Source: Thuidium tamariscinum
Taxonomy: Eukaryota; Streptophyta; Bryopsida; Hypnales; Thuidiaceae
Direction: 5' to 3'
Length of the DNA: 64,000 nt
Assembly (NCBI GenBank): GCA_947034885.2
Contig: OX344753.2
Span: 28,040,347 to 28,104,346, forward strand
Part shown: piece after piece, positions 14,089 through 51,883 of the stretch
How positions within the stretch are numbered: position 1 is the stretch's first letter
Layout: every line of letters starts with the position of its first letter
Translations under genes and position numbers: made by a program
The notes under the pieces: model-generated
Told to the model about the DNA's origin: nothing
The model's input: the letters and a program-made list of their open reading frames with translations, nothing else
The model's database searches: none

Positions 14089-14317
14089 CTCTTACTTGAC
14101 GCCTACACAATCTAGGCGCGGTCCAACTTAACTAAACCTCCCGCGCTCAAGAACCTGTCGGCTAGCGTAGTGCTACTCGCTCAACTATGTACCAGACCGG
14201 ATTGACAGTTTATCTATCCCTTCTCTCTGTCTGTAGACCGAATACTCTATCTCTGGCCGGAAACCCTTTCTCGAACTGCGTGCAAGAAAGTGGCAGGACC
14301 TGGCCCTGCTTCCCTGG

Positions 14318-14739: not shown

Positions 14740-15353
14740 GGTGGATAGAAAAGACGCGAATTGTACCAAACTCGTTTCAGGTAAAGCCATTCTTAAGTTT
14801 TTGAGTTTTTGAGTTGTGCTTCAAAATTGCATCGCTTGTGATGCAGAAGTTCATGGATTACAATGCACCTTCACTAGTTTACGTCTCATTACAATGTACG
14901 AGCTGTTGTCTTTAACTTTTCCTCTTGAAGAAAATTATATCCATTTAAGATCAACCCAAGGCATTGTTTACAGTTTTCTCTGCTTATGGTCCTGTTGAAG
15001 GCATGAGAGAAGCTTCAGGTCTTCTTGAATTTGTTGAGGAGCATTGAGAAAACCCTAGTTCCCAATTGTACTGTTCGTACAATGTTTACACGTTGGATCG
15101 TAAATTTGTACTGTTTGTACTTTGTACTGCTGTCGTAGGTGACAGCAAGTTTGCTCGGCATGTCTCCTTTAGTATTTGGTTTCATCAAATTTTCCATTGC
15201 ATTCCTTTTCTTTCATGTCGAGACAAATGCTCAGTGCTTAGGGTTGCATCTCCTTGACATTATTTTATGTTGTTTCCCTCATTATTGTTCTGGGTGTAGA
15301 CAAACCTTTATACATTTTATACTATCCTATCACACTTTGTTTTGGAGGTGCAG
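14740..15353 (+). promoter_or_regulatory. leader region of the RING-H2 gene, TTGTAC-containing, with a 3' splice site
   Basis: TTGTAC or GTACAA occurs repeatedly at 15066-15130 and singly at 14749. The segment ends with TTTTGGAGGTGCAG at 15353, a plausible 3' splice site 11 bp before the ATG, so the leader probably contains an intron. The 5' splice site and transcription start were not located. Confidence 0.45.
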
Positions 15354-15364
15354 AATTGTACAAA

Positions 15365-17879: not shown

Positions 17880-18736
17880 GAAGGCCTTGTGTTGCTGCAG
17901 CACTTACTTCCTCGGATGAAGAGGCAGAAGAAGAGAGAAGAAATTCTTCTACACCAATAGGTGGCAATGACGATCAGGTTTTCGAAGAACACAACACCGC
18001 TCTACAGAGTCCAGCTTGGAGCTTACAAGAACAAAGCCATAGGTACACCACTTGAGACTCGTGTGAAGTTGCCCAAGCTCACGGATGCTGAATTTGGAGA
18101 GTTGAGGGCTAAAATGCAAGGTGTGCCTTACAAGGCAGCGGTGGGTTGCTTGATGTATGCCATGGTAGCCACAAGGCCTGATTTGGCCTTTCCGGTGAGT
18201 GTTGTGAGTCAACACATGTCCAAGTATGGCCCAAAGCATTGGGCTGCGGTGAAGAGGGTGATGAGGTACCTTCAAGGCACACTTGGGCTGGAGTTGCAAC
18301 TTGGAGGTGCCCATGTGACTTTGCATGGCTATTGTGATGCGGATTGGGCAGGTGATGAGGCGGATAGGAGATCCACCACCGGCTACGTGTTTAAGCTTGG
18401 ATTGGGTGCCATTACTTGGAATTCCAAGAGGCAGCCCACCATAGCTCTTTCTACAACGGAGGCTTAATACATGGCCATGAGCCAATGCACCAAGGAGGCC
18501 ATTTGGTTGCGGCAACTCTTGGCTGATGTTGGCCTTGTCCAAGAGGGGAGCACACCCATCTGGTGTGACAACCAAGGGGCCATTGCTTTGGCCAAAAATC
18601 CCACCCACCACTCTCGGACGAAGCACATTGATGTGCAACACCATTTCATTTGTGAACGAGTGGAGGTTGAGGTGATTGAGCCTACCCAAGCTACCCAAGG
18701 GGCCATTGCTTTAGAGTCCTTTGGGTATTGATTTAT
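17880..18736 (+). mobile_element. Ty1/copia relic, RT-RNase H part
   Basis: Fossil copia polymerase DNA on the plus strand. It shows the RT C-terminal phrase [20 protein letters not shown] and the RNase H region ([21 protein letters not shown]). It ends with a short piece of LTR-like sequence and abuts an oppositely oriented LTR at 18737. It is broken. The family is the same as at 1-876 and 35070-35845. Confidence 0.85.
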
Positions 18737-18801
18737 TGAGATTATAATATTATGAATGGATGAAAGGCTTTACTTAGATGGTAGGAAGATACCATGGCCC
18801 A
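18737..18801 (-). mobile_element. copia LTR, first part (split by hAT-1 copy A)
   Basis: The first 65 bp (on the plus strand) of an LTR whose other 188 bp lie at 34882-35069. The two parts add up to exactly 253 bp, the length of the LTRs at 624-876 and 954-1206. This fixes the hAT-1 insertion point and its 8-bp target duplication. Confidence 0.9.
18794..18801. repeat. left target-site duplication of hAT-1 copy A
   Basis: ATGGCCCA, matching TTGGTCCA at 34874-34881 in six of eight positions. Uninserted LTR sequence at about 1010-1020 reads ATGGCCCATGAG. Eight-base duplications are typical of hAT elements; the mismatches suggest that this insertion is not very recent. Confidence 0.75.
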
Positions 18802-18829
18802 CAGGGTTGCTTCCGTTGCGTCGCGTCCG

Positions 18830-19285
18830 TCCGTCCGTTGATGTGACGGGGAGCCGAGCGTCCGTCAGGATGAAATTCACGACAGAATCCGTGACAGAGG
18901 ATGAAAAATCGTGACAGCGGTCGTGGACGCCCTCACGGACGACCTCTGTGGACGACCTGGAAGGACGTGCTCGGTGGACAGTTTCGATGGACGGTCCTGG
19001 CTGACTAGACGGCTTGGATGGACACTCTCGGTTCTGCCGACGGTCCGGATCCGGTGGACGGTTTTAGGGGACGGCCCCACTCGCGGGGTATGGACGGCCC
19101 CGATGGACAGGACATCCAGTGGACGGCCCGGACGGACGCCTCCACATCGACGGTCTGGGTACGGTCTACGCTTGGGAAGGACGGCTTGGATTGAGAGGAA
19201 GGTTGGACGGCCTGGGTTCGATAGACGGCCTGGCTGTGCCGTCGACAGTCAGGATGGACGGCCTGAGCTCCGTGGACTGGAACTC
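18830..19285. repeat. left subterminal GGACGG island of hAT-1 copy A
   Basis: GGACGG, GACGGCC and CCGTCC recur on both strands roughly every 15-25 bp. Frames read through it are composition artefacts. hAT transposases are known to bind subterminal repeats (such as the AAACGG motif of maize Ac), so a binding-site cluster is the natural reading. Copy B has the same island at 41180-41640. Confidence 0.75.
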
Positions 19286-19439
19286 TTTATTTGTAAGACT
19301 TAAAAGTCTGAGTTCATATTCGCAATCAAAATTTTCTCATTAGTCTATGAGGTTTAACCATCTCTCAAAAAATAATTTCGAAAGTTTTGTATTTTAGGCC
19401 TTCTATAGTCTAAATATAATATATATTCTGTATTTTTAA

Positions 19440-20745
19440 AAAAGGGTGTTAATGGTTTGAATCAAAAAAATGGAAATGGTTTGAATGAAAATAACGTTAA
19501 TGGTTTGGAATTGTGAATAAAAAAAAATGTAAAACTGGTTTTGAAAAAAAATGTGTTAATTGTTCGAATAAAAAAATTATGGAAATGGTTTGAATCAAAC
19601 AAATGGAAATGGTTTGAATAAAAAAAAACGTTAATGGTTTGAAATGTTGAATGAAAAAAAAATATAGAAAGGGTTTGGAAAAAAATGTGTTAATGGCTCG
19701 ACCAAAAAAATTTGGAAATGGGTTGGGAAAAAAATGTGATTAGGGTTTGACTAAACGAAATATGGAAATGGGTTGAAATGTTGGAAAAACAAATTTAGAA
19801 ATGGTTTGGAAAAAAAATGTGTTAATTGTTTGACTAGAATAAATATGGAAATGGTTTAGGGTAAAAGAAATGGCCAAGTTTTGAGTAAAGAAAAACGGTA
19901 ATGGTTTAGGGTGTTGGAAATAAAAATATAGAAATGGTTTGGAAAAAAGGTGGGTTAATGGTTCGACTAAAAAAAATATGGAAATGGTTTGAATCAAAGA
20001 AAAAGAAAAAGGAAATGCTTTGAATAAAAAAAAAGTTAATAATTTGAAATGTTGAATACAAAAAAATATAGAAATGGTTTGGAAAAAAAATGTGTTCATG
20101 TTTCGACTAAAAAATATATGAAAATGCTTCGAATAAAAAAAAATATGGAAATGGGTTGAATAAAAAAAAAGGCAATGGTTTGAAAGGTTGGAAAAAAACA
20201 TATAGAAAGGGTCGTGAAAAAAAATGTGTTAATGGTTCGACTAAAAAAAATAAGTTGGAAAGAAAATGTGTTCAAGGTTTGATTAAAAATAATATGGAAA
20301 TGGTTTGAATAAAAAAAATGGAAATGGTTTGAAAAAAAAAACTTTCATGGTTTGAAATGTTGAATAAAAAACATTTAGAAATGGTTTGGAAAAAAAATGT
20401 TAATGCCTTAATGGTTAAAGCTCAAATTGGAAATAGTTTGAATCAATAAAATGGGAATGCTTTGAATAAAAAAGAACGTTGATGGTTTGAAATGTGGACG
20501 ACAAAAAAATATAGAAATGGTTTAAGAAAATGTGTTCATGGTTCGACTAATAAAAATATGGAAATGGGTTCAATCTAAAATATGGAAAGGGGTTGAATCT
20601 AACAAATGGAAATGGGTTAGGGTAAAAAAAAATGGTTATGGTTTGACATGTGGAAAAAAATAATGTGGAAAAATGCGGTGGGAAAAAATTGGTTTAATGG
20701 TTTGATTAAAAAAATTCGAAATGGTGGGAATTAAAAACAAAAGCA
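19440..20745 (+). repeat. A-rich ATGGTTTGAAT repeat array
   Basis: Irregular tandem copies of TATGGAAATGGTTTGAAT separated by runs of A, with variants TGTGTTAATGGTTCGACTAA and GAAATGTTGAA. Copy B carries the same array at 41810-43105. The complementary words (TTCAAACCATTTCCAT) occur at 25738-26105, on the other side of the RING gene, in the opposite orientation. No coding capacity. Confidence 0.85.
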
Positions 20746-21097
20746 TATATACTTGTGGCATATGTAAAAAATAGAATTTTGGCATTTTTTAAAAGTAAAC
20801 TTACAAAATATACTTTAAGTGAAAGTATGGCATTGGATTTAAATGAACTTGTTGCACATACATTTCAAGCAAACGTATTGAGTATTCTTTTCATTTGTTC
20901 ATGGTTAAGTTTTCAGTTTAAGTGTTTAACAGACAATACAGTTGTACGAGAAAAATGAAAATGCTTCATTGCCCAAAAAATGTACTTTTGCAACATGAGC
21001 AACAAACGCTCGTAAATGGTCGTCATAGCCAAATACTATTTACAATACTAATATACTATACATCCGTCTAATGGCCTAACTCATCACCAGAAGGTAT

Positions 21098-23461
21098 TCA
21101 ACCTTGTTCTGGTTCTACAATGCCTCTGCCTATACTATTTCTCAAAAAAATTTGCAATCCTTCTCTAGATTGCAAACTGTTCAACGTAGCCACTACGGTC
21201 TGATCATATCGATCGTGCAAGTAGGAAGAAATGGTTGACAACATTTGCACCTCATTGAACGTAGTGTCTTCGATGAACCTCATTTGTGCCTCATGATCCA
21301 GGTCTTGGAGTATTCCGATAGGATTTCCACTGGAGTCAAAAACCACATTTTCTGGATGTGGTCGGCGCACGAACTCCTGTCGGTCCAAGTCCCAATGGCC
21401 ACCAGCAAGTTGGCCAAAAAATACTCGCCGCCCTGGATCGCCCGCATTAATCAGCTTCTTGCACACCTCCGTAATCTCCGCATCATCGATCCACGGAACG
21501 TCTTGCACGCTGCGCATGGTGAGGTGTCTACTGTCATGGCCCCACTTCCACATCCATATCATGTCATTACCCCAACTCCCTCTATTCTCATCGCCAGGCA
21601 AGTTCTCTTCGTTCAACTCGAAGTGCTGGGGCATGTAATCCTCCAACCCAAATTGGACGTACGACCGCCAATGCAAAGGAGCCTTGCATTGCGCGCACCG
21701 CTTTCTTGTGACCATGTGCGGAATGAGACATCCGGGGTGGTACATATGTCCACATGTTCCAAGGCTCCATCCACCCTCGGGCCCAAACGGTTCCATGCAA
21801 ATTGTGCACGTCGTTCCATCCTTCACAAACTCGGGAACTATGGGCCACAGTAAGGGGGGATTGCCTTCTCTATCCACGAGCCCGTATCGGTATCTTGCGG
21901 TGTTGAATTGGAAGTCTAGATGCGGATGCCCGTCCCAATCAATGCTTGCATTATCGCGATTTGTGGGCAATGTAACTGGAAACATATCCTCCAGTCGGGC
22001 CCACGATGTCAAGCCAAAATAACGTTGGCTACCATCTCTAAATTGTGCAGCTATTCTCCTGACTTCACGCTGCAGTTGTGCGACCTCGTTCATAGCCAAA
22101 GTGCATGCCAATCTCATGTTGCTCATGGCAAGCAACTTTTGCTCCCTCGTAGTTGACGTTTGTTGCAACAATCTATCCTTCATGGCATTTACAAATGCCA
22201 ACTTGTCCTGTAGTCCCTCTAAAGTCGCTGATACAGCCTCCATGTTGGCCTTGGCCTCATTGCACTCGCCCTCTGCACGCTCCGCTCGTGCCACAAGGGC
22301 ATCGTATGCCACGCGCTCAACGCTTATGAACTCTTGGCCCAATGCATCTGTTGATTGGGTTGCCGCATTTGAACTCTCACCACGAAAATGTGGTGTTGGG
22401 AACATACCACGAGGCCACACCCGGCGCACCGTCAACGGGTCAGCTGGCTCAATTAGACCATACGTGGCCCGCTCCACGACCTCATCCAATGGTGGAGTGC
22501 CATCCGTGCTTTGGCAACGTTCACGTTCAAGCAAGTCAATGTTACTTGCTAGTAACTTAGCATTCGTTTCCTCCAAAGCCTTCACCCGTGCGTTGTGGGC
22601 TTGTACCTCCATCTCGTGCCTTCGCTCAGCTTCTGCACCATCCTCACGCAGCTTAATCACCAATGCACGTAATGCCTCTAATTCCCCATTCGCTCCAAAT
22701 ACTTCATTAATTGTCGTGGACGGGGGAATTGGGTGAATGGCGAGTGGCATGGGCTCGCTTGGACCGGCAATGGGCGCCTCCAATTCGGGAGCCACCGGAT
22801 TTTGTTCGTTGGCGCCTTGAGGTGCATTGTCGACCTCCATGGGGTCCGCGGCCGCCGCTTCGTCCCCTTGTGCCCAAGCCACTCCTTCGCCCTCCAATTG
22901 CACTACAGGGTTTGGTAGAATTCTACGGCTTTTAGTAGGGAAACGGCCACCCCATTGTTTTGCCGTATACGTGTTCCAATCCACGTCCTTGCCCAAAAAA
23001 ACCTCCGCATACGCCATTTGACACAATGCGAGGGTCCCATCCTTCTTCGAGAGGGTCCCCCAAAGTGCCAATGCCACCTCGGTCAACCGCTTCTTGAACG
23101 TTGGGTGTATGAAGTATTTTATCAATGCACAGCCACATCGCACGTGCGTCTCATTTCTCTCCCGTGGAAAATGGCGGTTGATGTAGGCCCAGTCCACGTA
23201 TGTCCGACATGTGGTGCGGGTCCATGGCTCAAGCGCCTGTTCCCACCTGTGCCCGGCCAAAACTTCTCCAGTGTTGAAAGTCGCCCAGTCTACAGTGCTC
23301 CTGTTCCCACGACGCCTCCTGTGTGGGGGTTCACCTTCATGGGTTACCATCTCCTGGTTTTCTACCACTGGGGGGTGATTTCTAGGAACTACCACCTCCT
23401 GGTTCTCTGCCATGGGGGGGTTCTCTACATGTATTACCATCTCTTCAGGGTTTAAGGCCAT
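21098..23461 (-). CDS. coiled-coil RING-H2 protein of hAT-1 (copy A)
   Basis: 787 aa from the ATG at 23461; the frame continues a few codons upstream without another ATG. The N-terminal ~60 residues contain imperfect repeats around ENPPMAENQEVVVP. About 60-170 form a globular region (YVDWAYINRHFP, KKRLTEVALALWG, KDVDWNTYT). About 250-320 and 375-490 are coiled coil. A RING-H2 finger follows: Cys552, Cys555, Cys570, His572, His575, Cys578, Cys589, Cys592, complete and regularly spaced. About 170 residues of unknown type come after it. RING-H2 proteins are usually ubiquitin ligases; the substrate is unknown. A TATA box and a GGACGG island lie upstream (23663 and 23730-24150). Copy B encodes a protein of identical length with scattered substitutions and an intact finger, which suggests the protein was maintained, at least until recently. 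Whether it serves the transposon or was merely captured is open. Confidence 0.75.
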   Translation of the reverse strand: MALNPEEMVIHVENPPMAENQEVVVPRNHPPVVENQEMVTHEGEPPHRRRRGNRSTVDWATFNTGEVLAGHRWEQALEPWTRTTCRTYVDWAYINRHFPRERNETHVRCGCALIKYFIHPTFKKRLTEVALALWGTLSKKDGTLALCQMAYAEVFLGKDVDWNTYTAKQWGGRFPTKSRRILPNPVVQLEGEGVAWAQGDEAAAADPMEVDNAPQGANEQNPVAPELEAPIAGPSEPMPLAIHPIPPSTTINEVFGANGELEALRALVIKLREDGAEAERRHEMEVQAHNARVKALEETNAKLLASNIDLLERERCQSTDGTPPLDEVVERATYGLIEPADPLTVRRVWPRGMFPTPHFRGESSNAATQSTDALGQEFISVERVAYDALVARAERAEGECNEAKANMEAVSATLEGLQDKLAFVNAMKDRLLQQTSTTREQKLLAMSNMRLACTLAMNEVAQLQREVRRIAAQFRDGSQRYFGLTSWARLEDMFPVTLPTNRDNASIDWDGHPHLDFQFNTARYRYGLVDREGNPPLLWPIVPEFVKDGTTCTICMEPFGPEGGWSLGTCGHMYHPGCLIPHMVTRKRCAQCKAPLHWRSYVQFGLEDYMPQHFELNEENLPGDENRGSWGNDMIWMWKWGHDSRHLTMRSVQDVPWIDDAEITEVCKKLINAGDPGRRVFFGQLAGGHWDLDRQEFVRRPHPENVVFDSSGNPIGILQDLDHEAQMRFIEDTTFNEVQMLSTISSYLHDRYDQTVVATLNSLQSREGLQIFLRNSIGRGIVEPEQG

Positions 23462-23662
23462 AGTACCTGCACACAATGCCACAACACGGATGTATGTATA
23501 TACAGATGACTATGCTCTGCCTCCTGTTGCGTGAGGGCAACTAGAATGTGGCAAAGCAATAGCCAAATGCTTGACTTCCTCCCGAATTGCAATGCAAAGC
23601 TTTTTTCAAGCTAGGATAGAGCAACTCAAAAGAGAAAGCAAGGTGAATGTGGCTTAATTTGG

Positions 23663-23671
23663 GATTTATAC
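23663..23671 (-). promoter_or_regulatory. TATA box of the hAT-1 RING gene
   Basis: Minus-strand AGTATAAATCCC about 200 bp before the ATG and about 60 bp from the GGACGG island. The same box is present in copy B near 46035-46045. Confidence 0.6.
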
Positions 23672-23729
23672 TCCCCATTACCAAGGCTCGTTAGAAGTGT
23701 TAATTTGTGTCTAATCACATCGCCATGCA

Positions 23730-24150
23730 CCACCTGGAGCCGTTGATGCGGACGGCCATCGACGGTTGGGGCGTCCAGGGACTGTCGACTCTGGTTCGAG
23801 AGGCCGTCGACAGCTTCGGGATGACGTCACAGAGGCCGTCCACAGGTCCGGCACCGTCAACGAGTTCGAAAAACATCATGACTTCGAAAAACACTTATTA
23901 CTCCGCTGAATTACAAATTCGATGGCCCAAAATGGCTCTTCGTGACGGCCTGCCCGTGGTCTTGGACGGCCACTGTTCAGCTGTGGACAGCCTGCCCGGA
24001 CAGGTCAACGCTCCGGCCCGAGGTCCTGGACGGCCCAAATTCGTTGCGGACGGCCTGTCCAGGTCCTGGACGGGCCCGTGTTGCTGGACGGTTTTCTGGA
24101 CGCCCTCCGTCCCCGTGACGGCCTGCCCAAGTCCTGGACGGGCTCAATAG
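23730..24150. repeat. internal GGACGG island upstream of the RING gene
   Basis: GC-rich DNA with GACGGCC, GGACGGC and CCTGCCC words in an otherwise AT-rich element, beginning about 60 bp beyond the TATA box of the RING gene. Copy B has it at 46115-46890, enlarged by extra repeat units and a MITE. Confidence 0.7.
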
Positions 24151-24159
24151 GTGGCTACA

Positions 24160-27100
24160 ATATATACCCTGAATTTCAATTAGGCAGGTGGAATCCAATT
24201 AGACAGCCAGGATCCAATTATGCAATTGGTATTCATTTAGGCAGTTGAGATGCAATAAGCTGTAAGACAGCTGAATTTTAATGAGGGTGAACTGGTGAAG
24301 ATTGCCAATGCAGTATCTGTATACTGTAATTTTTATTGGAGCTCAGTGAGTTAACATTCACAGCTTGCATTTCTTTTTAAAAAATTTTGGGATTCATTCA
24401 TGATTGTGACAAGTGTGTGACTCATTCAGATCTTGTATTTCTTTTTAAATTTTTTTAGGATTCATGATTGTGACAAGTGTGTTAGCCATGTATGCATGGT
24501 AGGAGGCTAAGATTCCACTTATTTAAATTAAGAGTTGATTTGCCTTTTTCCTGTATGTCTTTAGATGAAAATATTTTTAGTTTATTTTTCAGTCAAGGAG
24601 AAATAGATGAGGAATCTAATACAAGTTGTTTCATATTTTTTTTGAAGAAAAATTGAATTAATTATGAATTTTCAAACACAATTTGTCATAGGACCCTATT
24701 TGTGATCAGTAAGCCTTAAAAACCTATACATGCACAGTTTCTAAAAAAATCTGGTTTGGTTCAAAAACTAGTAATGCAACATGTAAAAAACGGTTTGAAA
24801 TGGTTTCTAAATGTGTCCCTTTCAAAAACTGAAATGAATTCTTCAATTAATCATTATTTCAAAACAATTTCACATTTGAAAGAAGGTAGTTTAACAACCA
24901 TTTTTTATTTTGAATAAAATTAGTAGACACCTATAAGTACACTTAGTTATGATTGAATCCATTATAACTCTAAAACCATCCATTCATATAGTAAAAATCA
25001 AATCTTAGCATGCTTCAATATAATCCACAATTAGTTTTCTCACAATGAGCTATCCAATTCAGACCCTCCTATTAGGCAGATACAAAAGCCTGCATAGTTT
25101 ATGAACCTCCGTGTGAGCTTCCTACCATAATAGTTGATTTGAGAGCCCAGGTCCTTGAACTTCTTCATTTTAGATGTTAGAATGGATTTGCAGACTTATT
25201 GATACTTGTGTTTTTAAACACAATCGGCTTATTAAATTCCCTAAGTTTTCTTATTATATAAATGAATGTGAATATGCTCTTGTGCCTTTAAATTGGTTTT
25301 AAATATTGCATTAGGATTGTCTACTATAGTTTAATTTCTCTATTGTGTGCTTTGTTTTCTTATAAATGGTGAAATATAAATAGTTGTAGCTTTGATTTTT
25401 GATTTTCAAACTCTTTAGTGGCACATAGATAGCATATGCTGTGCGTTTCACCATGTTCTTAGTTCATCAAAATCCTTGAAGCTGACATGTTTCCTTGTAT
25501 ACAATGTTTTTGATCTTCTCAGTATTTTGTAATTATGAAATGTAGAAAAAAATAGGGTGTTCAAAAATAGTCCTTCAAAGAATTTACAAAAGAAAATAGG
25601 GTACTCTAAAATACACTCCGGTAGCTTTATTTCTACTAATAGGGAGGGACAAAAACATGAGAAGGACATAAATACCCCCCCATTAAATACCCTGTTATCG
25701 CACGTGGTTACTAAAAGATAAGGGGTGTGAACCCCCCAAGTCTGTTATTCAAACCATTCCCATTTTTTTTATTCAAACCATTTCCCCATTTTTTTCCAAA
25801 GCGATTCATTTCCATTTTTTTTTTGGCGAACCATGAACCCATTTTTTGGTCCAAATCCCTTCTATATTTTTTTTTCCAACACCCAAAACCATTAACGTTT
25901 TGCTTTATTCACACCACTTCCATTTTTGGGATTCAAACCATTTCCATATTTTTTTTAATTGAACCATTAACACATTTTTTTCCAACCCATTTCCACATTT
26001 TTTTTATTCGAACCGGGCTCGACAATTTCTTTCCAAACCATTTCTATATTTTTGGCGGGTAACTTCTTTAACCCTTTGACATGTTTTTTTGGTTCAAACC
26101 ATTAACACACTTGCGGAATTCTAACTCTTTCGTCTAGGGTTTATCATAGACTTCGGCAAAGAGAGGATTAGAGCGGTTTAGGGTCCCGCAGAAGAGTCTG
26201 AATTCTGAAAATTGGTTGGTGCCCACTAATGGAGTCTTGCTTGCTAGTGCCCCCGTCCTAAACTCCTAATTAGTGCTTTAGTTCACTTATACTTTCATAA
26301 CTCATAGTTTCATAACTCATAAGTAGAGTACATGACTACAGGACCAGAATATTATGCAATATAGTAATATACTAATATGTACATGTAGTACTAATCTAAT
26401 TTCCTAAAAAATATATGCCTAGTCGGATGGCTCCCGAATTTAAAATTGAGAAGTTTAAATCCCTACATATCCGTAGGGCACTACTTCTAAAATTTAGGGT
26501 CCATCACTTCAGCCATTCTCGATATGAGATGAAGCACTGGAAGGCAATGTAAAATTTTAGCCGTGTACATTACACACTACCCACCAACAAGTTTAGGGTC
26601 ATCCAATTCTGCCATTGAAACGAATTTTGCATAATATAATCAAGCATACCAAATGTGGATTTCACATAAGTCAAATTCAGTTTTTGGTGAATTGTTTCAT
26701 TCAAAACTCATGGTTTAGCATGATAATTGATTATAAAACATTGGTGATGAATTAGCATTAATTTACAAAGAGGAGATATGTAGGAAACATCCATATGCAC
26801 ATTTTTCATACCAAAAAACATCCTAGATTCCTAGTAAGTTACAACAATATAATTGGGTTGAAGAATTCAATTAGGCATTTTATATGACCCCATTTTGTAA
26901 AATAGATGTATGTACGCTTGAATTAGATTTAGGCAAAGTCATTGTACGGAAATGATTTAAGTTCCTCAAGGAGTCATAGTGTGACCATCAAATAGCAAAT
27001 GCTAATTAAGCCGGATTAAATTATTAAAATTAGCTCCTATTTCCTAAATTTGCGGGGGAGAATGAAATTAGATGGAAAGGGAGGAAGTAGAGCTTTTTGA

Positions 27101-27500
27101 TGACACAACTGAGAACGGATATGCATCAACCAAAGAGGTATGTGTTTAGACCCTAAACCAATAAGTTTAATCATTTCGTGTTATTTCTTTTATTTACTTC
27201 AAAATTTGCAAAATTAGATTGACGCTAGGAAAAGAAAGATCAATTACCGAATACAAATTATAATGCACTTCTTAAGTTATTAAATTACTAAACTAGACAT
27301 TTTACCCTCATTTACCCAAAAGTGAAAAGGAACTTAAACCCTAAACCCTAAATCCTAAACCTTCGGTTGGGCAAGGGCTTTAGGCTGGGTTTTTGACCTT
27401 CTCAAAATTCAGTGTCAGCCCTTAGATGGGCGGTTTCTGGCCTGTTACCTTATTACCTTGTAGAGGAATTTCAGTTGCACGAGGCTTGCCATTAAGTCTT
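24160..27500. other. AT-rich spacer of hAT-1 between the RING and kinase genes
   Basis: 3.3 kb with no supported gene; copy B carries the same sequence (46890-50720). It holds the T-rich complement of the ATGGTTTGAAT array at 25738-26105, and an interstitial telomere-like run at 27331-27362 (AAACCCTAAACCCTAAATCC). Small frames, such as 25448-25669 minus, are shared by both copies but have no domain and no coding signature. Confidence 0.6.
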
Positions 27501-27539
27501 CGCTGGCATCTTCACCGCCCTGTGCTTCCCCGACGATCC

Positions 27540-27860
27540 CCTTAATGGTTCAGAATCCCCGAGACGCCTTGTGGGGTCGTGTGGACGGCCTCGTTCCATG
27601 ACGGACCCCCGAATTCCCAGGACAGCTTGTGCGTCCCCTCGACGGTCTCGCAGTTCCTCGACGGTCCCCACGACGGCTTTGAAATTCTCGGGACGGATGG
27701 GGCGTCCCGTCGACGGCCTCATCGTCCTCGACATTCCCCTCGACGGCTTCCGAATTCTGAGGACGGCGACCACGTCCCCTCGACGGTCTCGGAGTTCCCG
27801 ACACCCCTCGACGGCTTTCGAGTTCCCTGGACGGATCGGCCATCCATGCGACGGCTCGCC
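27540..27860. repeat. internal CGACGG island upstream of the kinase gene
   Basis: CGACGGC, GGACGG and CCTCGACGG repeated at about 20-30-bp intervals, ending 7 bp before the TATA box at 27867. Copy B: 50740-51058. Confidence 0.7.
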
Positions 27861-27866
27861 AACGGC

Positions 27867-27873
27867 TATATAA
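27867..27873 (+). promoter_or_regulatory. TATA box of the hAT-1 kinase locus
   Basis: TATATAAGG directly after the CGACGG island and about 200 bp before the ATG at 28069; conserved in copy B at 51064. A pyrimidine-rich leader (TCTCTCCTGCTCTGACGG) follows. Confidence 0.7.
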
Positions 27874-28068
27874 GGTAGGCCAGTTTCCCCACTCTGCACG
27901 AGTCTCTCCTGCTCTGACGGTGCTCTCTTGCCCTGGATTGGTTGCAGTCCTTGCTTGGGAGCGCGGGTGCTTGCAAGGAGGCTCGGCTGAGGAAGGGGGG
28001 ATAGTTTTCACATTTGTGACTACTGAACCCTAATTCCTTGGTTTTACCATCGCATATTTTTTTCCAGA

Positions 28069-28677
28069 ATGGACGGGCGAGGTGCGTCGAAGCGCAAGGT
28101 TGATGTGTGGTTTTCAGGCATCGGAGATCCTGTTGGTGAGCATTCTCTAGAATCCATTGACTGTGTATCGGAGGCAGTATTGGCCGGAGAAGGGGTCGGT
28201 GGTGCGGCTGGAGGAGAATCTTCGGGGGCCAAGAAAAAAAAGAACAGGCGGAGGCACAAGGCTACGAATACAGACGACTGGCCAAGGAAGGCTGCAACCA
28301 GGAAAGTGCAGGAAGTGGCATTGGATTTTCTGGAGCAATATACGATTGCTCAATTGAATACGACCTACGTCTCGCGTGGATTGCAAGGGGTGGAGACAAT
28401 AAAAAAAAAATTCACCCACATGGTTTGGACAACAATGGGCGAGGATGAGTGGCTTGAAGATCGCACAAAGGAACACTTCCGTCGTTGGCTTGACGAACAA
28501 GTGCAAACTTGTGTTTTCAACATCGCCCAAGTCGCCGCATCGGTAAAGGGCTTCAAACGAGATGTAGCGCCGAAGCAACAAGCATTGCATTTGTTGCACA
28601 AAAAGGTGTATTGGTGGCATGACGCAATGCGAGCGCTGTCTTCCAGCAATATCCGCTCTGCCCCATGGTTTCAGTAG
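28069..28677 (+). CDS. 202-aa protein of hAT-1 kinase locus (copy A)
   Basis: The ATG at 28069 is preceded by TTTTTTTCCAG, a strong 3' splice site with a branch-like TACTGAAC 50 bp upstream, so the leader holds an intron. The protein has a basic nuclear-localisation-like cluster (KKKKNRRRHK, about residues 59-68) and a mostly helical C-terminal two thirds rich in Trp and Lys. I recognise no domain. It ends in a TAG, after which the same frame continues into the kinase domain; this stop is the same in both copies. It may therefore be the N-terminal part of the kinase, reached by splicing or read-through, or a separate protein. Copy B (51266-51874) is nearly identical over residues 30-202, with most changes near the N-terminus. 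Confidence 0.6.
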   Translation: MDGRGASKRKVDVWFSGIGDPVGEHSLESIDCVSEAVLAGEGVGGAAGGESSGAKKKKNRRRHKATNTDDWPRKAATRKVQEVALDFLEQYTIAQLNTTYVSRGLQGVETIKKKFTHMVWTTMGEDEWLEDRTKEHFRRWLDEQVQTCVFNIAQVAASVKGFKRDVAPKQQALHLLHKKVYWWHDAMRALSSSNIRSAPWFQ

Positions 28678-28686
28678 AGCCAAAGC

Positions 28687-29729
28687 TTGTCCCTAGGCCA
28701 AGCGGGTGCAGGAGGAGTGGTATTTCTCGAACGAGGAGTGGTGGTGGTTCCATTGTCAGGCCACAACAAACAAGGGGGGCACGGGAGGGTGCGTAAAGTG
28801 AGCCTCCAAAATTCAAGGCACATTCCCCCCACGATGGAATTGGCGGGCAAGACAGCCCTATATGTGGATCAATTGAAGAAGTCACGGGAGAAGTTGTCCA
28901 TCGAGGCTTTGGTTTGTCCATGTAATCATCCAGGGGTCATAAAATTTTTTGCTATAAATGACATGACCATGGAGTGTTATTCTCAATGGTGGAATGGAGG
29001 AACATTGGAGCCATGTTCGCATTGGACCATAAAAACCGAGATTATGCTGAGATCGGGGAGCTTGCCTACCATGCAACTCCACAGACGATGCAAGAAGCCA
29101 AAAGACTCTTGGCTTATCGTAGAAACCGCACCGAGCTTGCATGGGCGTTAATTTGCATCGTGGATGCGGTGCAACAATCTTCGGTGCTCCACAACGACAT
29201 CACGCCAGAAAACATCATGTTGCATTTTCCGAATGATGATGGGCGAACAGTGTGGATTGGGCTATGTGATTGGGGAATGGCTAGTCGTATCAATGAAGAA
29301 ACCCATTCTTTGTACCAGTTTCAATGTGGAAGCCAAATGCGGGCTACACGTCAAAAACGTTGGTGGGTGGCCCCTGAATTGATGTATGTTCCTGGAGAGG
29401 CGGGCACTTCGGTATCTCCCACTCGTGCAGATGGGGCACCGTGTGTTAGTATACATACAGACGAATATGCTGTTGGGAAGCTTGCGGAGAAGATATGGAA
29501 GAAAGACCACGAAAATACGCAAATGCTTCCCGACCATACAGCGTTTGGTACATTTCAAGCGACATTGGGCGAATTGTGCAAAGAGGACCCACTACAACGA
29601 CGCACGGTAACGTACACCGTGGGACGAATTAGTGGCGCCCCCTTATTTTGGACTCCACCCGTGGATTGCTACCGCGAGGCCCGCAAGGAGCAAGCACTTC
29701 TACAAGAACAAGCAAGGAATGAAGATTAG
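28687..29729 (+). CDS. protein kinase domain carried by hAT-1 (copy A, one frameshift)
   Basis: The N-lobe lies in the frame of the upstream 202-aa protein: Gly-rich loop GGHGRV, AGK (the Lys of the VAIK motif), helix-C Glu in SIEALV, and HPGVIKF. The C-lobe lies at 28974-29729: HNDITPEN (the catalytic loop; Asp75 and Asn80 of that frame, Asn replacing the usual Arg of HRD), DWG (Asp99) in place of DFG, APE at 133-135, and the F-helix Asp163 in TDEYAVGKL. All residues needed for catalysis are present. The two frames meet near 29008, where copy A reads TTGGAGCC and copy B TTGGGAGCC, so copy A has lost one G. Without a search I cannot place it in a kinase group. An AATAAA lies at 29841. Its position within the transposon and behind a GGACGG island argues that it is transposon cargo, probably captured from the host long ago. 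Confidence 0.7.
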
Positions 29730-29840
29730 AGAATAGTATTTTAGTGGCAATGTAATCGTAGACGTACCTTAGTACTTGCTTTTACCACAGTATAGTCCAC
29801 GAACTTTGCGTCACTGAATTTTGTACTAACTCCTTTTTGA

Positions 29841-29846
29841 AATAAA
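29841..29846 (+). terminator. polyadenylation signal after the kinase gene
   Basis: AATAAA 112 bp after the kinase stop codon, followed by T-rich DNA. A consensus match only. Confidence 0.4.
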
Positions 29847-30336
29847 TACATGTAAATATTTTTGTTCCATTCGAGTATGATTCCGGTGAGTGGATTTGTG
29901 AGTAGTTCTGTCCCTTCGCAAATTTTGGACTTAATGCCATGTTAATTCAGTACTTTCAATCATTTTCTCCATATTCCAGATTACATTTGTTTTCTTGTAC
30001 AAGTTCGAAAATCCATAATGATCTCAAAATATCCAAGCATGTAGGTAACCAACTTCGAAGAATGAATCCAAATTTAAGAGTATAGAACACATGGCAAATG
30101 ACAAAGCAAATATTTCCATTTCTTGGGACAAATATCCATAAATGGATCCGTTGTTGACTTGTTGCGTTGTAGAATTTGTGACATGTGAAGATAAAAAATT
30201 TCTACCCACGTGCCTTACATGAGCACATGAAGCATGGGTAGTATTTATAATTAATGCCGAATTTCACATGCAAGGTATTCAGCCTTACATAGTATTACAT
30301 AAGATGACATGGAGACATTTTTTTCCCTAGATGCTC

Positions 30337-30993
30337 TCAACGTCTTGCACGTGTACGATTAAGAACCATGCTCCTTGCAGCAGCCTCTCGCGTGGTTGCT
30401 TGGTTGTCTTGAGGTGTAGGTGGAGGACCTCTACGAGTCCCTCTATAATCACTATCTCCCGGAACTTCACCATCTTCACCTATACTAGGACCCATGGATT
30501 CATCATCATGATTGGACGTTGCCCTACCGACTTCGCTTGGTGAGTTGTCAGGGCTGTCTGAGCCTTCACCTACAATAGAAGCCAATCTGCAGATTGTTCG
30601 CCCCCCTATTCCATCACCAGCGGTATCCACACTCGGCCCCGCTGGTCTAGGGAGAAGACCTTCGCGGAGAAATGGTGTACTCGCCACTTCTTCCCTTCTT
30701 AGCCTTCTACGTGTTCTTCTACTCACTCGTTCGTTGGTAGGGCCTTCTTCACGTGGCCGCGACCGTCGATTAGTAGTGCGTGTAGGCGGTGCAACGGGTT
30801 GTTCTGAGGATGGAGGTGCATTCCTTCGCTCGGTCATATTTAGAGTTGGGAAGAGACCGGCCAATCGTGTACCGATTGATGGATTTTCTTGGTTGGGGCA
30901 GGCTCTAGAAGATGAAGGCCGTGCTGAAATTTGGACGGGTGGATCATCCAAGCTAGGCGCTTGTGTTCGCACGCCGATCATGTCTCGACGCAA
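30337..30993 (-). CDS. Arg/Pro/Ser-rich frame downstream of the transposase
   Basis: A 218-aa frame, 51 bp beyond the transposase stop and on the same strand. It is disordered and basic, with an RRTRRRLRRE cluster, and has no recognisable domain. Its position suggests a 3' exon or alternative tail of the transposase transcript. Copy B lacks this region, so no comparison is possible. Confidence 0.4.
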   Translation of the reverse strand: MRRDMIGVRTQAPSLDDPPVQISARPSSSRACPNQENPSIGTRLAGLFPTLNMTERRNAPPSSEQPVAPPTRTTNRRSRPREEGPTNERVSRRTRRRLRREEVASTPFLREGLLPRPAGPSVDTAGDGIGGRTICRLASIVGEGSDSPDNSPSEVGRATSNHDDESMGPSIGEDGEVPGDSDYRGTRRGPPPTPQDNQATTREAAARSMVLNRTRARR

Positions 30994-31044
30994 TGTGCGA
31001 AAGTCTATCTCGACACCAATGGGGGATATGTGGCTACGAGTGTT

Positions 31045-33498
31045 CTACGCCACTGGGGGATCTGTGGCAACGACCTCATCTTCGCCTTGTCTTTCTACCA
31101 CAACGACATGTTCATGTCTCCAGGTACGCATTTCTTCTTCAATCGGCCCTACAACTGGCAAAGGTGGGGCTTCAACCCCTTCGTTTTGATTTCCACCACT
31201 TGACCCCGCAATCGATGTACGTGGCATCCATGACGGACTGCCACCATTTCCCCCGTTGTCATTTCCACCCTCGTCTCCCCCGTTGTCATTTCCATCCTCA
31301 TCTCCCCCGTGGTCATTTCCATCATTATCCGCGCCATCAAAGTCAAATACGGACTCGTCAATTAGGGGACCCCTTTCTTGCCTTTCACCCAAAGGCCGAA
31401 ATGGTGGATCATCATCGCCATTGGAACTGTCGTCTAAGTCATCGTTGTTAGCGTCTGACATAACCGAACCACGATCCAAGCCATCTGATTCGGTTGTCAT
31501 GGAATCTTCGGACAACATGTTCTCAGTGTACCACCGTGCTGCATCCGCGGCACCCCTTTCCCTGAGAGTCCTCGAATTGGTATAAATGTAAACCAATTCC
31601 TCTGCGCGCTCAGATGTCAATCTGTTGCGAGACTTGCTGTGGACAAATGAATACATGCTCCAATTGCATTCGCATGATGATGGGGAACATACTTGTGCGA
31701 GGATCCTTCTTGCAATAGGTGCAAGCATATGAGCACCGGCTCCGAGAAGATCCCACCATTCATGTGGCTCCAAATTCAAAGTATTCACATCGGGAAGTCC
31801 AGCGAACATGCCTCGGCGGTCTCGAAAGGATTGGTACTCAAACAAAGCGGTTGCATATCCCAACCCTCCAACTGCCAATTTGCGTAGTACTCTAAGAATG
31901 GCCTCCTTTGCCTCGTTATCGTCTATTAGTATAATTTCATCAAGGAGGAATGGATTGAGCAGGGCAGCTGCGTAGTGCAAATCGGTCTTCATCAAATCCC
32001 ATCGTTCGTAAAACGCGTATTCAGCACGGTCCACATAATTTGCCTCCAATGAAAATGGTCGATTCCTTAAAGCCAAAACATGCTTTTCTAGCTTCTTCAT
32101 CACGATCCATGCTTTGCCCATGACCGGATGTTTTCCATCAAACTCTCGAAGAGCCACCAACACAGGCTCTACCATATGCACAAAGTTGAGACACCTCCTC
32201 CAGAACTCGTCCTTTCGAACCCTACGTCGAACCTTTTCTGCCTTATTGTGTATTGCAGCGTTCGAGGACCTCACATATTTGTTCCACTGCGGATCATGGA
32301 CTGTAGATTCCACGGCTTCCTTGACCTCGGCCAAACGCTCGATCATGAGGAACATGGTCGCAAAATGTGTCTCACTAGGATTCTTCAACATGAGATTAGG
32401 AGAATGTCTTCGGAAAATGGCGAGTGGCATGTGATGCGTGTGAATGAATTTCACGATTGATTTTGCTTTCTTCACCATTTTGACCACCCAAAGTTGCTTG
32501 CCCCAATCTTCAAGTAGAAGGTCAAGTGCATGCGCGGAACAACCTTGGAAATATAGGTGAGGGAATTCGCGAGTAATTTGAGTACCAGCCAAACGCATGT
32601 TTGGCGCATTGTCCGTACAAACTTGCACCATATTCTGTCCCCCCACTGCATCAATGTAATCGATCATGCGATTAGCCACATAAACAGCATCTTTGCTTTC
32701 GCCTGTAGTGTCCACTGATCCCAAAAATACTTCTCCACTCGTGCACGACAACATGACATTGATCAATGGCCGATGGCTGACATTGTCCCATCTGTCAAAA
32801 CATATAGTGACACTGTACTTGTGGATAGGCCCCCTTGTCTTCTCCACTACCAGTGCAGCCACTTCCTCCTTTATTGATGTCATGAGCTTCGTACGTATGG
32901 CATTGTAAGGTGGAAGTTTGTAAAGAACTCTGAACTCGGAGGTTGATTTCACGGCATCCACAAAAGCGGGGTGTCTCACCACATTGAATGGGATATTTGC
33001 TTCGTAGAAAAACTTCGCCCACTTCTTGTCTAGTACTTGCTTTTTGGATGTGTCCATCCCTTCTTGTACGGATAATTGCCTCAGCAGTCGACTATGGGTC
33101 GAAGAAGGGACAGGCGCCTCTGATGATCGAACTTGAGAATTTTGGCCCAAAGTATTTCCTCCCCCTCCACTAATTGAGATTGAAGCATTGGGTAATTCTT
33201 GATCAGGTACCACCCTCGTTGGATTCGATGACGGTGATGTCACTTCCACATCATGTTCCTCTTCGTCTTCGGAGACCGTAGGAACATTCCCTCCACAATT
33301 GAAAAACATAGCCTTCACTGCTGCACTGGCCTTGTTGCACATTCTCACTCCGGGGAGGGTGTCATTTCGTTTATAACCCAAGTGGAAAAGCAAGCGATCC
33401 TTGCGGTAACTAATCTTCGTTTTGCAGAACTTGCATTCCACTTTCCCATCCTCTTGTAGCCTGTACCAGGGTTCCCATTGTGTCCTCCCCCCTCCCAT
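31045..33498 (-). CDS. hAT-superfamily transposase with N-terminal BED zinc finger
   Basis: 817 aa from the ATG at 33498. The frame remains open to 33609, but a TACTAAC branch site and TTTGTGCAG acceptor at 33525-33548 show that the upstream part is an intron. Residues 5-60 form a BED finger (Cys22, Cys25, His39, Cys54). The middle has the DUF659-like catalytic region with Asp235 in CFDRWDN and Asp296 in CTDNAPN, then CSAHALDLL, and the C-terminal hAT dimerisation region with the third acid, Glu610, in SSCECNWS followed by RNRLTSERAEELV. This is the RNase H-fold acidic triad of hAT transposases, which cut DNA through hairpin intermediates and leave 8-bp duplications, matching those seen. The tail (about 700-817) is acidic with imperfect GGNDNGGDE repeats. 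The gene appears whole and is the only transposase in the window. Confidence 0.9.
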   Translation of the reverse strand: MGGGRTQWEPWYRLQEDGKVECKFCKTKISYRKDRLLFHLGYKRNDTLPGVRMCNKASAAVKAMFFNCGGNVPTVSEDEEEHDVEVTSPSSNPTRVVPDQELPNASISISGGGGNTLGQNSQVRSSEAPVPSSTHSRLLRQLSVQEGMDTSKKQVLDKKWAKFFYEANIPFNVVRHPAFVDAVKSTSEFRVLYKLPPYNAIRTKLMTSIKEEVAALVVEKTRGPIHKYSVTICFDRWDNVSHRPLINVMLSCTSGEVFLGSVDTTGESKDAVYVANRMIDYIDAVGGQNMVQVCTDNAPNMRLAGTQITREFPHLYFQGCSAHALDLLLEDWGKQLWVVKMVKKAKSIVKFIHTHHMPLAIFRRHSPNLMLKNPSETHFATMFLMIERLAEVKEAVESTVHDPQWNKYVRSSNAAIHNKAEKVRRRVRKDEFWRRCLNFVHMVEPVLVALREFDGKHPVMGKAWIVMKKLEKHVLALRNRPFSLEANYVDRAEYAFYERWDLMKTDLHYAAALLNPFLLDEIILIDDNEAKEAILRVLRKLAVGGLGYATALFEYQSFRDRRGMFAGLPDVNTLNLEPHEWWDLLGAGAHMLAPIARRILAQVCSPSSCECNWSMYSFVHSKSRNRLTSERAEELVYIYTNSRTLRERGAADAARWYTENMLSEDSMTTESDGLDRGSVMSDANNDDLDDSSNGDDDPPFRPLGERQERGPLIDESVFDFDGADNDGNDHGGDEDGNDNGGDEGGNDNGGNGGSPSWMPRTSIAGSSGGNQNEGVEAPPLPVVGPIEEEMRTWRHEHVVVVERQGEDEVVATDPPVA

Positions 33499-33524
33499 TG
33501 CTCCCACTGGTTCTTCACTTGAAA

Positions 33525-33548
33525 CTGCACAAACAAAACAAGTTAGTA
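33525..33548 (-). other. 3' splice site of the transposase leader intron
   Basis: On the minus strand TACTAAC, an optimal branch sequence, is followed 16 bp later by CAG after a T-rich tract. This places the end of an intron 27 bp before the ATG at 33498. Confidence 0.7.
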
Positions 33549-33711
33549 TTCTGTTTGGATGTGATGTGGAAATAACACTTACTGCTTTCACAGCAAGTGT
33601 TCCTCCCACACACTCTTCTTGGACTTCACTCTAATGCAATGGCTGTGTGCCAACCAAGTCATAAGAACAGAGATCAACAAGGGAAAGTGACCTTCAAATA
33701 CACGGCTCGCG

Positions 33712-33719
33712 CTATATAA
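33712..33719 (-). promoter_or_regulatory. TATA box of the transposase gene
   Basis: Minus-strand TTATATAG about 215 bp before the ATG and about 30 bp from the GGACGG-rich subterminal block, the same order as in the RING and kinase genes. Confidence 0.55.
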
Positions 33720-33739
33720 TGTGAAGGCCTGGCAGCAGT

Positions 33740-34870
33740 CATCCAGTCGACGGCTTGTCCGTTGGCGCACTGTGGACAGCCGCGGACGCGACGTCGTGGC
33801 CGTCCCCGCAGACGCTCTGGCCGTCAAGCGGACGTTCCGCTGTCCAGACGATGGCCTCGCCGTCCCCACAGACGCTATGGCCGTCCAGCGGACGTCCCGC
33901 TGTCCAGACGATGGCCTCGCCGTCCCCACAGACGCTATGGCCGTCCAGCGGACGTCCCGCTATCCAGACGACGGCCTCGCCGTCCTCGCAGCGTGGACGG
34001 ACTCTGGACGCCGTGACCGTCCGCTGAACGGAAAATTGTCGAGGCGACGACCTCGCCGTCTCGTTGAGCGGACGCTGTGGCCGTCCAGACGACGGCCTGG
34101 CCATCCCTACAGCGTGGACGGACTCTGGACGCCGTGACCGTCCGCTGAACGGAAAACTGTCGAGGCGACGACCTGGTCGTCTCGTTGAGCGAACGCTCTG
34201 GCCATCCAGACGACGGCCTGGCCGTCCCCGCAGCGTGGACGGACTTTGGACACCGTGACTGTCCGCTAAACGGAAAACTGTCGAGGCGACGACCTGGCCG
34301 TCTCGTCGAGCGGACGCTCTGGCCGTCCAGACGACGGCCTGGCCGTCCCCGCAGCGTGGACGGACTTTGGACGCCGTGACCGTCCGCTGAACGGAAAACT
34401 GTCGAGGCGACAACCTGGCCGTCTCGTCGAGCGGACGCTCTGGCCATCCAGACGACGGCCTGGCCGTCCTCGCAGCGTGGACGGACTCTGGACGCCGTAA
34501 CTGTCCGCTGAACGGAAAACTGTCGAGGCGACGACCTGGCCGTCTCGTCGAGCGGACGCTCTGGCCGTCTAGACGACGGCCTGGCCGTCCCCGCAGCGTG
34601 GACGGACTCTGGACGCCGTGACCGTCTGCTGAACAGAAAATTGTCAAGGCGACGGCCTGGCCATCGCGCCTAAACTCTAAAGCCGCGAACGCTCTGGCCG
34701 TCCACGTGACGGCCAGTCGTCGAGGCGGCCGACAGGCCATCTGAGCGCTGTCGACGGACTTCATCCGCGCTGTCGACGACGCCGTCAACATTCAGGACGG
34801 CCTCTGATGCGTCCTGCCGCGTCATGACATCCGGAAGGGAAAAGCCCACGTCACGTCAGGATAGACAACC
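33740..34870. repeat. right subterminal repeats of hAT-1 copy A: 60-bp and 121-bp tandem units
   Basis: Between 33800 and 33975 a 60-bp unit (GACGCTATGGCCGTCCAGCG) occurs about three times. From 33990 to 34680 a 121-bp unit marked by GCGTGGACGGACT starts at 33991, 34112, 34233, 34354, 34475 and 34596. All are rich in GGACGG/CCGTCC. Long frames here (such as 33739-34791 minus) only reflect the repeats. The block abuts the transposase promoter. Confidence 0.85.
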
Positions 34871-34873
34871 CTA

Positions 34874-34881
34874 TTGGTCCA
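34874..34881. repeat. right target-site duplication of hAT-1 copy A
   Basis: TTGGTCCA, six of eight identical to the left copy at 18794-18801. Confidence 0.7.
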
Positions 34882-35845
34882 TGAGTGGGCTGAACATGAG
34901 GGAGAAGCCTTTCCCTAGTTATCCACAAACCATGTAGGATAAGTAAACACCATGGGCTGCCTTTGACTACAAGCAATACCCAAGGGACTCTAAGGCTAAC
35001 TAAGAGTCTAATGCTACTCCTAGGGCTGAATGTACATAGTCTACACTAATATGTATATGATCTTCAACACTCCCACTTTGGGAGTGGTCAAATGCTCGAA
35101 GGCCCATCTTCTCAATCAAGTTGTGGTGTTGTGGCTTCCCAAGAGCCTTGGTCAGCACATCAGCAACCATAGCTTGGGTAGGCACATACTTGAGCTCAAT
35201 CACCTCAGCCTCCGTTGTAGAAAGAGCTATGGTGGGCTGCCTCTTGGAATTCCAAGTGATGGCACCCAATCCAAGCTTAAACACGTAGCCGGTGGTGGAT
35301 CTCCTATCCGCCTCATCACCCGCCCAATCCGCATCACAATAGCCATGCAAAGTCACATGGGCACCTCCAAGTTGCAACTCCAGTCCAAGTGTGCCTTGAA
35401 GGTACCTCATCACCCTCTTCACCGCAGCCCAATGCTTTGGGCCATACTTGGACATGTGTTGACTCACAACACTCACCGGAAAGGCCAAATCAGGCCTTGT
35501 GGCTACCATGGCATACATCAAGCAACCCACCGCTGCCTTGTAAGGCACACCTTGCATTTGAGCCCTCACCTCTCCAAATTCAGCATCCGTGAGCTTGGGC
35601 AACTTCACATGAGTGTGAAGTGGTGTACCTATGGCTTTGCACTCCTCCATGTTGAAGCGCTTGAGAATTTCTTCAAGGTACTTGCGTTGGCTCATGGTGA
35701 TGGTGTGGGCAGCCCTATCCCTCTTGAACTCCATTCCAAGGCAATAATTCAGCATCTCATACTCCTCCTTGAGCATGGCCTTCACTTCAAGCATTTGGGA
35801 GATATGCTCAATTGTGACTAATGTGACTAATGCTTTTTGGGGCAT
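34882..35845 (-). mobile_element. Ty1/copia relic: LTR remainder and RT-RNase H part
   Basis: 34882-35069 completes the LTR begun at 18737. CCAAAGTGGGAG, the polypurine tract on the minus strand, adjoins it. 35070-35845 is copia polymerase DNA ([46 protein letters not shown]). It is broken and truncated at its 5' side. Closely related to the fragment at 17880-18736, which lies in the opposite orientation. Confidence 0.85.
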
Positions 35846-41153: not shown

Positions 41154-41179
41154 CAGGGTTGCTTTCGTCGCGTCACGTC

Positions 41180-41640: not shown

Positions 41641-41809
41641 CTGGAACTCTTTATTTGTAAGACTTAAAAGTCTGAGTTCATATTCGCAATCAAAATTTTC
41701 TCATTAGTCTATGAGGTTTAACCATCTCTCAAAAAATAATTTCCCATGGTTTTGTATTTTAGGCCTTCCATAGTCTAAATATAATATATATTCTGTATTT
41801 TAAAAAAAG

Positions 41810-46733: not shown

Positions 46734-46919
46734 GCCGTCCTCGACGGGCCCGTCTTCCTGGACGGTTTTAGGGACGCCCTCCGTCCCTGTGACGGCCTGC
46801 CCAGGTCCTAGACGGGCCCGTCTTCCTAGACGTTTTTCTGGACGCCCTCCGTCCCCGTGACGGCCTGCCCAGGTCCTGGACGGGCCCAATAGGTGGCTAC
46901 AATATATACTGAATTTCAA

Positions 46920-51874: not shown

Positions 51875-51883
51875 AGCCAAAGC

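Follow-up and report, generated by a model that had tools for sequence, protein, structure and literature searches.

Transposons of the hAT superfamily are usually regarded as short, with a single gene in a few kilobases of sequence. In one published account hATs are typically ~5 kb long and reach 7,144 bp, and one that carries histone H3 has 9.5 kb (PMC6710886); gene capture is called rare in hATs in an account where the Ac transposase is described as binding AAACGG, repeated near both ends (PMC3260210). The VANC proteins of VANDAL elements are described as removing silencing and as binding short motifs that have multiplied into tandem repeats in the noncoding DNA of the elements, among other places upstream of VANA (PMC5735166, PMC10398659). 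According to a statement of 2015, Chapaev-type elements are the only transposable elements known to contain a RING finger (PMC4411706). Here we analyzed a 64,000-nucleotide stretch of the Thuidium tamariscinum genome (contig OX344753.2, positions 28,040,347 to 28,104,346; hereafter the window), which has no ambiguous bases and is rich in transposable elements. We detected two insertions of a large hAT element, in which a RING-H2 gene and a protein kinase gene stand in the same order, and arrays of the motif GACGG are found at the element ends and 5' of the genes; copy 1 additionally carries a hAT transposase gene.

Copy 1 (18802-34873, no strand assigned, 16,072 bp) starts at 18802 with the left terminus CAGGGTTG and stops at 34873 with the right terminus CAACCCTA (TAGGGTTG read inward). 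Short terminal inverted repeats, as expected for hATs, are present in both copies, CAGGGTTG/TAGGGTTG in copy 1 and CAGGGTTG/CAGGGTTG in copy 2. The 8-bp target duplication claimed for copy 1 by the original prediction, which was made from the letters of the window, is present as ATGGCCCA/TTGGTCCA and backed by an unoccupied site, and it is imperfect, with 6 of 8 bases identical. The unoccupied version of the target lies at 951-1207 on the plus strand, where both flanks are joined and ATGGCCCA occurs once; the left flank (18734-18801) is 97% identical to 951-1018 and the right flank (34875-35070) is 95% identical to 1012-1207, with a 7-bp overlap. Since this repeat joins the flanks with a single ATGGCCCA, both ends of copy 1 are fixed, and the proposed hAT insertion at 18802-34873 is borne out by related ends, the duplication and the unoccupied target elsewhere in the window.

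The transposase gene of copy 1 is located at 31045-33498 on the minus strand (817 codons and a stop, counted from the Met at 33498), within an open reading frame (ORF) that spans 31045-33630. Pfam detected DUF659 (E=1e-33, 116.6 bits, cut-off 34.7) and Dimer_Tnp_hAT, the C-terminal hAT dimerisation region (E=1.8e-7, 31.3 bits, cut-off 21.4). The closest PDB sequence match is Hermes, which is weak (E=0.045). The full Asp-Asp-Glu (DDE) triad had been predicted, and D235, D296 and E610 do stand at the predicted positions; in the weak Hermes alignment D235 and E610 are in register and D296 is out of register, so the assignment of D296 rests on its motif. Directly past the transposase stop (TAG) there is an open frame of 235 amino acids in the same frame (30337-31044) without a Pfam match, which is perhaps a C-terminal extension of the transposase severed by a nonsense change. 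No relatives were confirmed for the transposase, RING and kinase proteins in viral contigs, nor for the transposase and RING proteins in genome contigs; both collections consist of viruses, bacteria and archaea, and single-sequence queries reach close relatives only, so that this result carries little weight.

Copy 2 (41154-63172, no strand assigned, 22,019 bp) is bounded by CAGGGTTG and CAACCCTG and has a perfect target duplication, CTGGAGAG, with 8 of 8 bases identical. These two are the only copies of the element seen within the window. Three stretches of copy 1 align with copy 2: 18802-24141 with 41154-46501 (96.8% identity), 24049-24558 with 46791-47298 (96.5%) and 24555-29080 with 47764-52278 (97.3%). 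The 3' end (34425-34872 versus 62715-63171, 84.0%) is clearly more diverged than the remainder of the elements, partly because of its tandem repeats and CpG change; CpG-type transitions make up 23 of the 68 differences in the aligned blocks of both copies. The RING and kinase loci were predicted to follow the same order in two copies, and copy 2 does hold both, the kinase as its first part only. That the cargo belongs to the family and is not a single accident, as also proposed, is supported by the shared order and sequence (96.8%, 97.3% over the main matching stretches), by copy 1 having no extra exact terminus, and by GACGG arrays at all three genes.

The motif GACGG was found via enriched words from the element ends, after GC-rich tandem repeats had been noticed by eye before the genes. 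In copy 1 the motif is packed into four blocks: the 5' end (18802-19300, 18 motifs, 4.2 expected from dinucleotide shuffles, as for all blocks), 5' of the RING gene (23600-24260, 14 motifs, 1.6 expected), 5' of the kinase gene (27480-28068, 15 motifs, 2.6 expected, with a 70-bp tandem unit), and the 3' end, which is also 5' of the transposase (33640-34873, 41 motifs, 8.3 expected, with 121-bp and 60-bp tandem units). The corresponding blocks of copy 2 are the 5' end (41154-41660, 18 motifs, 4.9 expected), 5' of the RING gene (45950-47000, 23 motifs, 2.3 expected, with a 68-bp unit; the copy 1 block is shorter), 5' of the kinase gene (50700-51260, 11 motifs, 2.7 expected) and the 3' end (62708-63172, 21 motifs, 3.3 expected). 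Together the eight blocks (5,567 bp, 8.7% of the window) contain 161 of the 222 GACGG, or 28.9 per kb, compared with 17 in the 22,089 bp of the elements beyond the blocks (0.77 per kb) and 44 in the 36,344 bp outside the elements (1.2 per kb). Twenty of the 21 bins of 250 bp with at least four GACGG fall within the two elements, and among 5-mers occurring in all four copy 1 blocks GACGG has the highest minimum z (6.0).

The closest GACGG lies 153-290 bp from the ATG of the three genes. Counted in 1.2 kb 5' and 3' of the ATG, respectively, copy 1 has 14 and 2 motifs at the RING gene, 15 and 2 at the kinase gene, and 37 and 1 at the transposase gene; copy 2 has 23 and 2 at the RING gene and 11 and 3 at the kinase gene (counted from 51257, nine bases off the ATG at 51266). 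For comparison, five further ORFs in the window have 0, 0, 0, 5 and 0 motifs within the same distance upstream. Between the copies GACGG was retained in 74 of 84 cases, versus 786 of 1,017 for other CpG-bearing 5-mers, which is only suggestive with overlapping counts in both directions. With GACGG crowded at the two ends as well as 5' of each of the three genes, the arrays suggest that RING and kinase are built into the workings of the element, in the manner of the VANDAL/VANC arrays or the AAACGG sites of Ac.

The arrays may instead serve transposition only, in synapsis or replication timing, their 5' location merely reflecting the available noncoding DNA. There are few other noncoding stretches near gene 5' ends, and a second hAT-like sequence in copy 2, described below, has GTCGCC clusters at its ends and inside with no adjacent ORF of at least 250 amino acids, both in line with such a role. 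However, copy 1 does have noncoding stretches free of arrays (19301-21097, 24261-27479 and 29730-31044), and GACGG is scarce in the elements beyond the blocks, so that we regard this explanation as unlikely. A composite origin, in which the 16-kb unit would have formed by fusion or nesting of several related hAT elements, whose ends would survive as the internal GACGG blocks, is decidedly improbable. An exact search for [CT]AGGGTTG or CAACCCT[AG] (degenerate ends were not searched) found none inside copy 1 beyond its two termini, and the longest matches between blocks of different positions are 35 bp, so these blocks are not copies of one array. This is set against the resemblance of the internal blocks to subterminal regions in motif content, the opposite orientation of the AT-rich minisatellites around the RING gene, and the nested hAT-like sequence that does exist in copy 2 (53468-62707).

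The RING-H2 gene of copy 1 (21098-23461, minus strand) is a single ORF of 787 codons, encoding a protein with a coiled-coil-like middle and the RING domain at residues ~551-594 from the Met. In copy 2 the ORF (43470-45833, minus strand) is intact, also with 787 codons and without an indel relative to copy 1. Pfam detected the RING-H2 domain (E=1.4e-6), with a zf-RING_2 score of 28.9 bits in copy 1 and 27.2 bits in copy 2, the latter slightly under the cut-off of 27.3. The eight C3H2C3 ligands are identical in both copies and ligase activity is predicted; a sequence search of PDB matched RNF24 (8.6e-5) and RNF126 (0.0037). An AT-rich minisatellite of one kind is located on either side of the gene in opposite orientation (19438-20741 and 25745-26103), in copy 2 too. 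Elsewhere in the window, a 657-amino-acid ORF (15242-17215) has a RING-like C-terminal part, 30% identical over 59 amino acids to the RING protein of the element, and its neighbour, a 596-amino-acid ORF (12301-14091), is like the ORF at 52149-53594 (41% over 141 amino acids, E=1e-36).

The kinase gene of copy 1 (28069-29729, plus strand) is broken by a TAG at 28675-28677 and a 1-bp frame difference at ~29007, and that of copy 2 (51266-52272, plus strand) ends abruptly at 52272. The Pkinase match of Pfam covers the C-lobe only (E=4e-9, 36.7 bits, cut-off 31.7), the N-lobe pieces having no Pfam match, and no PDB sequence matched the kinase at 0.01 or better. By eye, the motifs HND and DWG are found where HRD and DFG are expected. 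The TAG is common to both kinase copies; with few donor types allowed, two in-frame introns, of 135 bp (28543-28677) or 72 bp (28606-28677), could remove it, and perhaps it lies within one of them. At ~29007 copy 1 has one base fewer than copy 2 in a run of G (GG/GGG), leading to the frame shift, and a sequencing error is possible there because the difference sits in a G run. Copy 2 stays in the kinase frame past this run until 52272.

On balance, we find it somewhat probable that the locus as a whole is an integrated large multi-gene hAT, with the transposase, RING and kinase genes under shared GACGG arrays. Several observations weigh against it. Neither copy has an intact cargo pair, as the kinase is broken in both, and the transposase is absent from copy 2. 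The BED zinc finger is common, not universal, in the hAT superfamily; of the finger predicted for this transposase we saw a C-x2-C..H..C pattern by eye only, and Pfam did not recover zf-BED at E<=1. AlphaFold models, from one sequence for the transposase and two for the RING protein, have a mean predicted local distance difference test (pLDDT) score of 39 and 33, respectively, and are of no use. The borders of the GACGG blocks were set after the clusters had been seen. Within copy 1, 14.5% of the 1.2-kb stretches carry at least 14 GACGG; by arithmetic from this value, two internal arrays would have a chance of ~2% of standing at the two internal genes by random placement, a low but real probability, and copy 2, as a relative, gives no independent case for the array placement. 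The ratio of nonsynonymous to synonymous change (dN/dS) of the RING gene between the copies is 0.71; the 58 differences in 2,364 bp, 17 synonymous and 41 nonsynonymous, are spread over the codon positions as 20/19/19, and neutral simulation gives 16.7 synonymous and 39.0 nonsynonymous.

Because dN/dS is 0.71 and the counts match the neutral simulation, no protein-level constraint is visible in the RING gene since the split. Neutral evolution of the cargo, named by the original prediction as a result that would speak against it, was thus found for the RING gene for this interval, and the same would be expected from the normal decay of copies under silencing. Differences between two copies mostly arise after insertion, and the ratio therefore neither proves nor excludes selection in an active lineage. 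The RING frame was kept in both copies, and it stays free of stops in 8.3% of the neutral simulations. The gene has no indels versus 11 in 5,197 bp of noncoding DNA, a baseline that takes in simple repeats, which gain indels easily; about five would be expected, with a Poisson chance of none of ~0.7% by arithmetic. In the kinase gene, the initial part shows two synonymous and five nonsynonymous differences and the next stretch two and one, respectively, too few to judge.

These data bear on the possibility that RING and kinase are captured host sequences carried unused, by transduplication, next to GACGG repeats grown as a coincidental satellite. We consider this passenger role doubtful, with a real chance of being correct. 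It is consistent with the neutral-like RING divergence, with the two broken kinases, and with the presence of only two copies within the window, and captured sequence has been described in hATs, both as histone H3 in the ~9.5-kb fungal element (PMC6710886) and as the gene fragments occasionally carried by Ds elements (PMC3260210). On the other hand, the long single-ORF RING gene is intact in both copies, arrays of the terminal motif stand 5' of each gene, and copy 1 has its own transposase ORF, unlike the non-autonomous Pack-TYPE or transduplicating class, whose members contain pieces of host genes present elsewhere. No host parent gene is known, no search aimed at one having been made.

For the integrated multi-gene hAT, the following mechanism may be proposed. 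The DUF659/Dimer_Tnp_hAT transposase would cut at CAGGGTTG-type ends and yield the 8-bp duplications seen in the anatomy of both insertions. The terminal GACGG arrays would most likely be transposase binding sites, by analogy with AAACGG for Ac, and the arrays that precede RING, kinase and transposase would most likely put these three genes under one element-encoded GACGG-binding protein, in the simplest case the transposase itself or otherwise one of the two accessory proteins. For the RING-H2 protein the most likely role may be that of an E3 ligase directed at weakening host silencing or at regulating transposase dosage, with the kinase assisting through phosphorylation. After insertion the copies decay, as observed in the broken kinases and the absence of the transposase from copy 2. 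The full form of this proposal is a self-regulating multi-gene hAT, in which one protein would bind GACGG for transposition and also for opening or tuning three promoters, and the E3 ligase with the kinase attacks host silencing or sets the transposase level, a hAT counterpart of VANDAL/VANC acting via ubiquitin and phosphorylation. We put this forward tentatively, as possible and not probable, and any specific RING target is much less certain than the integrated element itself.

In copy 2 no match to the copy 1 transposase region was found; its place is taken by the target of copy 2 itself, in inverted form, and by the second hAT-like sequence. The target copy (52273-53467, minus strand), unoccupied and identified by comparison with the copy 2 flanks 40247-41153 and 63173-63468, takes the place of the remaining kinase gene, starting within it and stopping exactly where the second hAT-like terminus opens (53468). 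It resembles filler left by break repair or by alternative transposition, and an assembly error may also be its source. The second hAT-like sequence (53468-62707, nested in copy 2) is bounded by CAGGGTTTTCT and AAAACCCTG, and its flanking 8-mers are unequal (ATTCGCCC/CTCTGGCC). Its GTCGCC clusters are located at both ends and at 59200-59800, and no ORF of at least 250 amino acids begins inside it. A further CAGGGTTG terminus at 36967-37042 is 84% like 53468-53544 over 77 bp; its partner end was not found.

Copy 1 is flanked by inverted copia-like fragments (18032-18464 and 35207-35639, 98% identical), the right one with an RVT_2 match below the cut-off. These fragments, and in copy 2 the inverted pair 40247-41153 and 52561-53467, raised the possibility that the elements are larger or misassembled, which was rejected for both copies, as target repeats explain the inverted sequences and the unoccupied site sets the ends. 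An assembly error may lie behind the inverted flanks of either element. Near the left edge of the window, a 728-amino-acid ORF (1355-3541) has a weak RVT_1 match (E=7.8e-5, under the cut-off) and GIPMG and YRYIDD motifs by eye.

Among the matches listed by searches of the open-licence literature, many of them unrelated papers, we found no published hAT with both a RING and a kinase gene, which supports such an absence weakly. The Ac/Ds system of maize, as described in PMC3260210, shares the 8-bp duplications, the short inverted ends and a short motif near both ends with the element described here, and its DDE transposase is matched here by a transposase with a putative DDE triad. Ac has 4.6 kb and one gene, whereas copy 1 has 16 kb, three genes and the motif GACGG, with arrays also internally, 5' of the genes. 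The histone-H3 hAT of Pseudocercospora is described with a DUF659 transposase, an 8-bp duplication, an extra protein gene and a length above the usual size (~9.5 kb; PMC6710886), all features in common with copy 1. Its cargo is reported to be a single histone coding sequence, captured and inactivated by repeat-induced point mutation (RIP), in contrast to the pair of multi-domain genes found here, each preceded by arrays.

The ubiquitin system has been connected to DNA transposons in other ways. In the Chapaev/RAG1 systems a RING finger is likewise tied to a DNA transposase (PMC4411706), being described there as fused in cis to the transposase, whereas here it is encoded by a separate gene in a hAT. 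Helitrons with a deubiquitinase are also DNA transposons with a protein of the ubiquitin system (PMC9741609), and they are described as rolling-circle elements with the protease domain within the RepHel ORF. If the proposed reading is true, the transposon-encoded ubiquitin ligase and kinase would be candidates for counter-silencing.

VANDAL21/VANC of Arabidopsis, a Mutator-like element, is described with several genes, tandem arrays of a short element-specific motif in noncoding parts near genes, and a repeat number that varies between copies (PMC5735166, PMC10398659), as in the element of this window. The two belong to different superfamilies, the transposase here being hAT and not Mutator-like by Pfam, and an element protein that binds the motif and removes DNA methylation, as in the VANDAL type, would be putative here. 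To our knowledge, VANC has no known RING or kinase domain. A three-gene hAT with every gene behind arrays of the terminal motif would mean, if true, that multi-gene, self-regulating transposons arose in the hAT superfamily as well.

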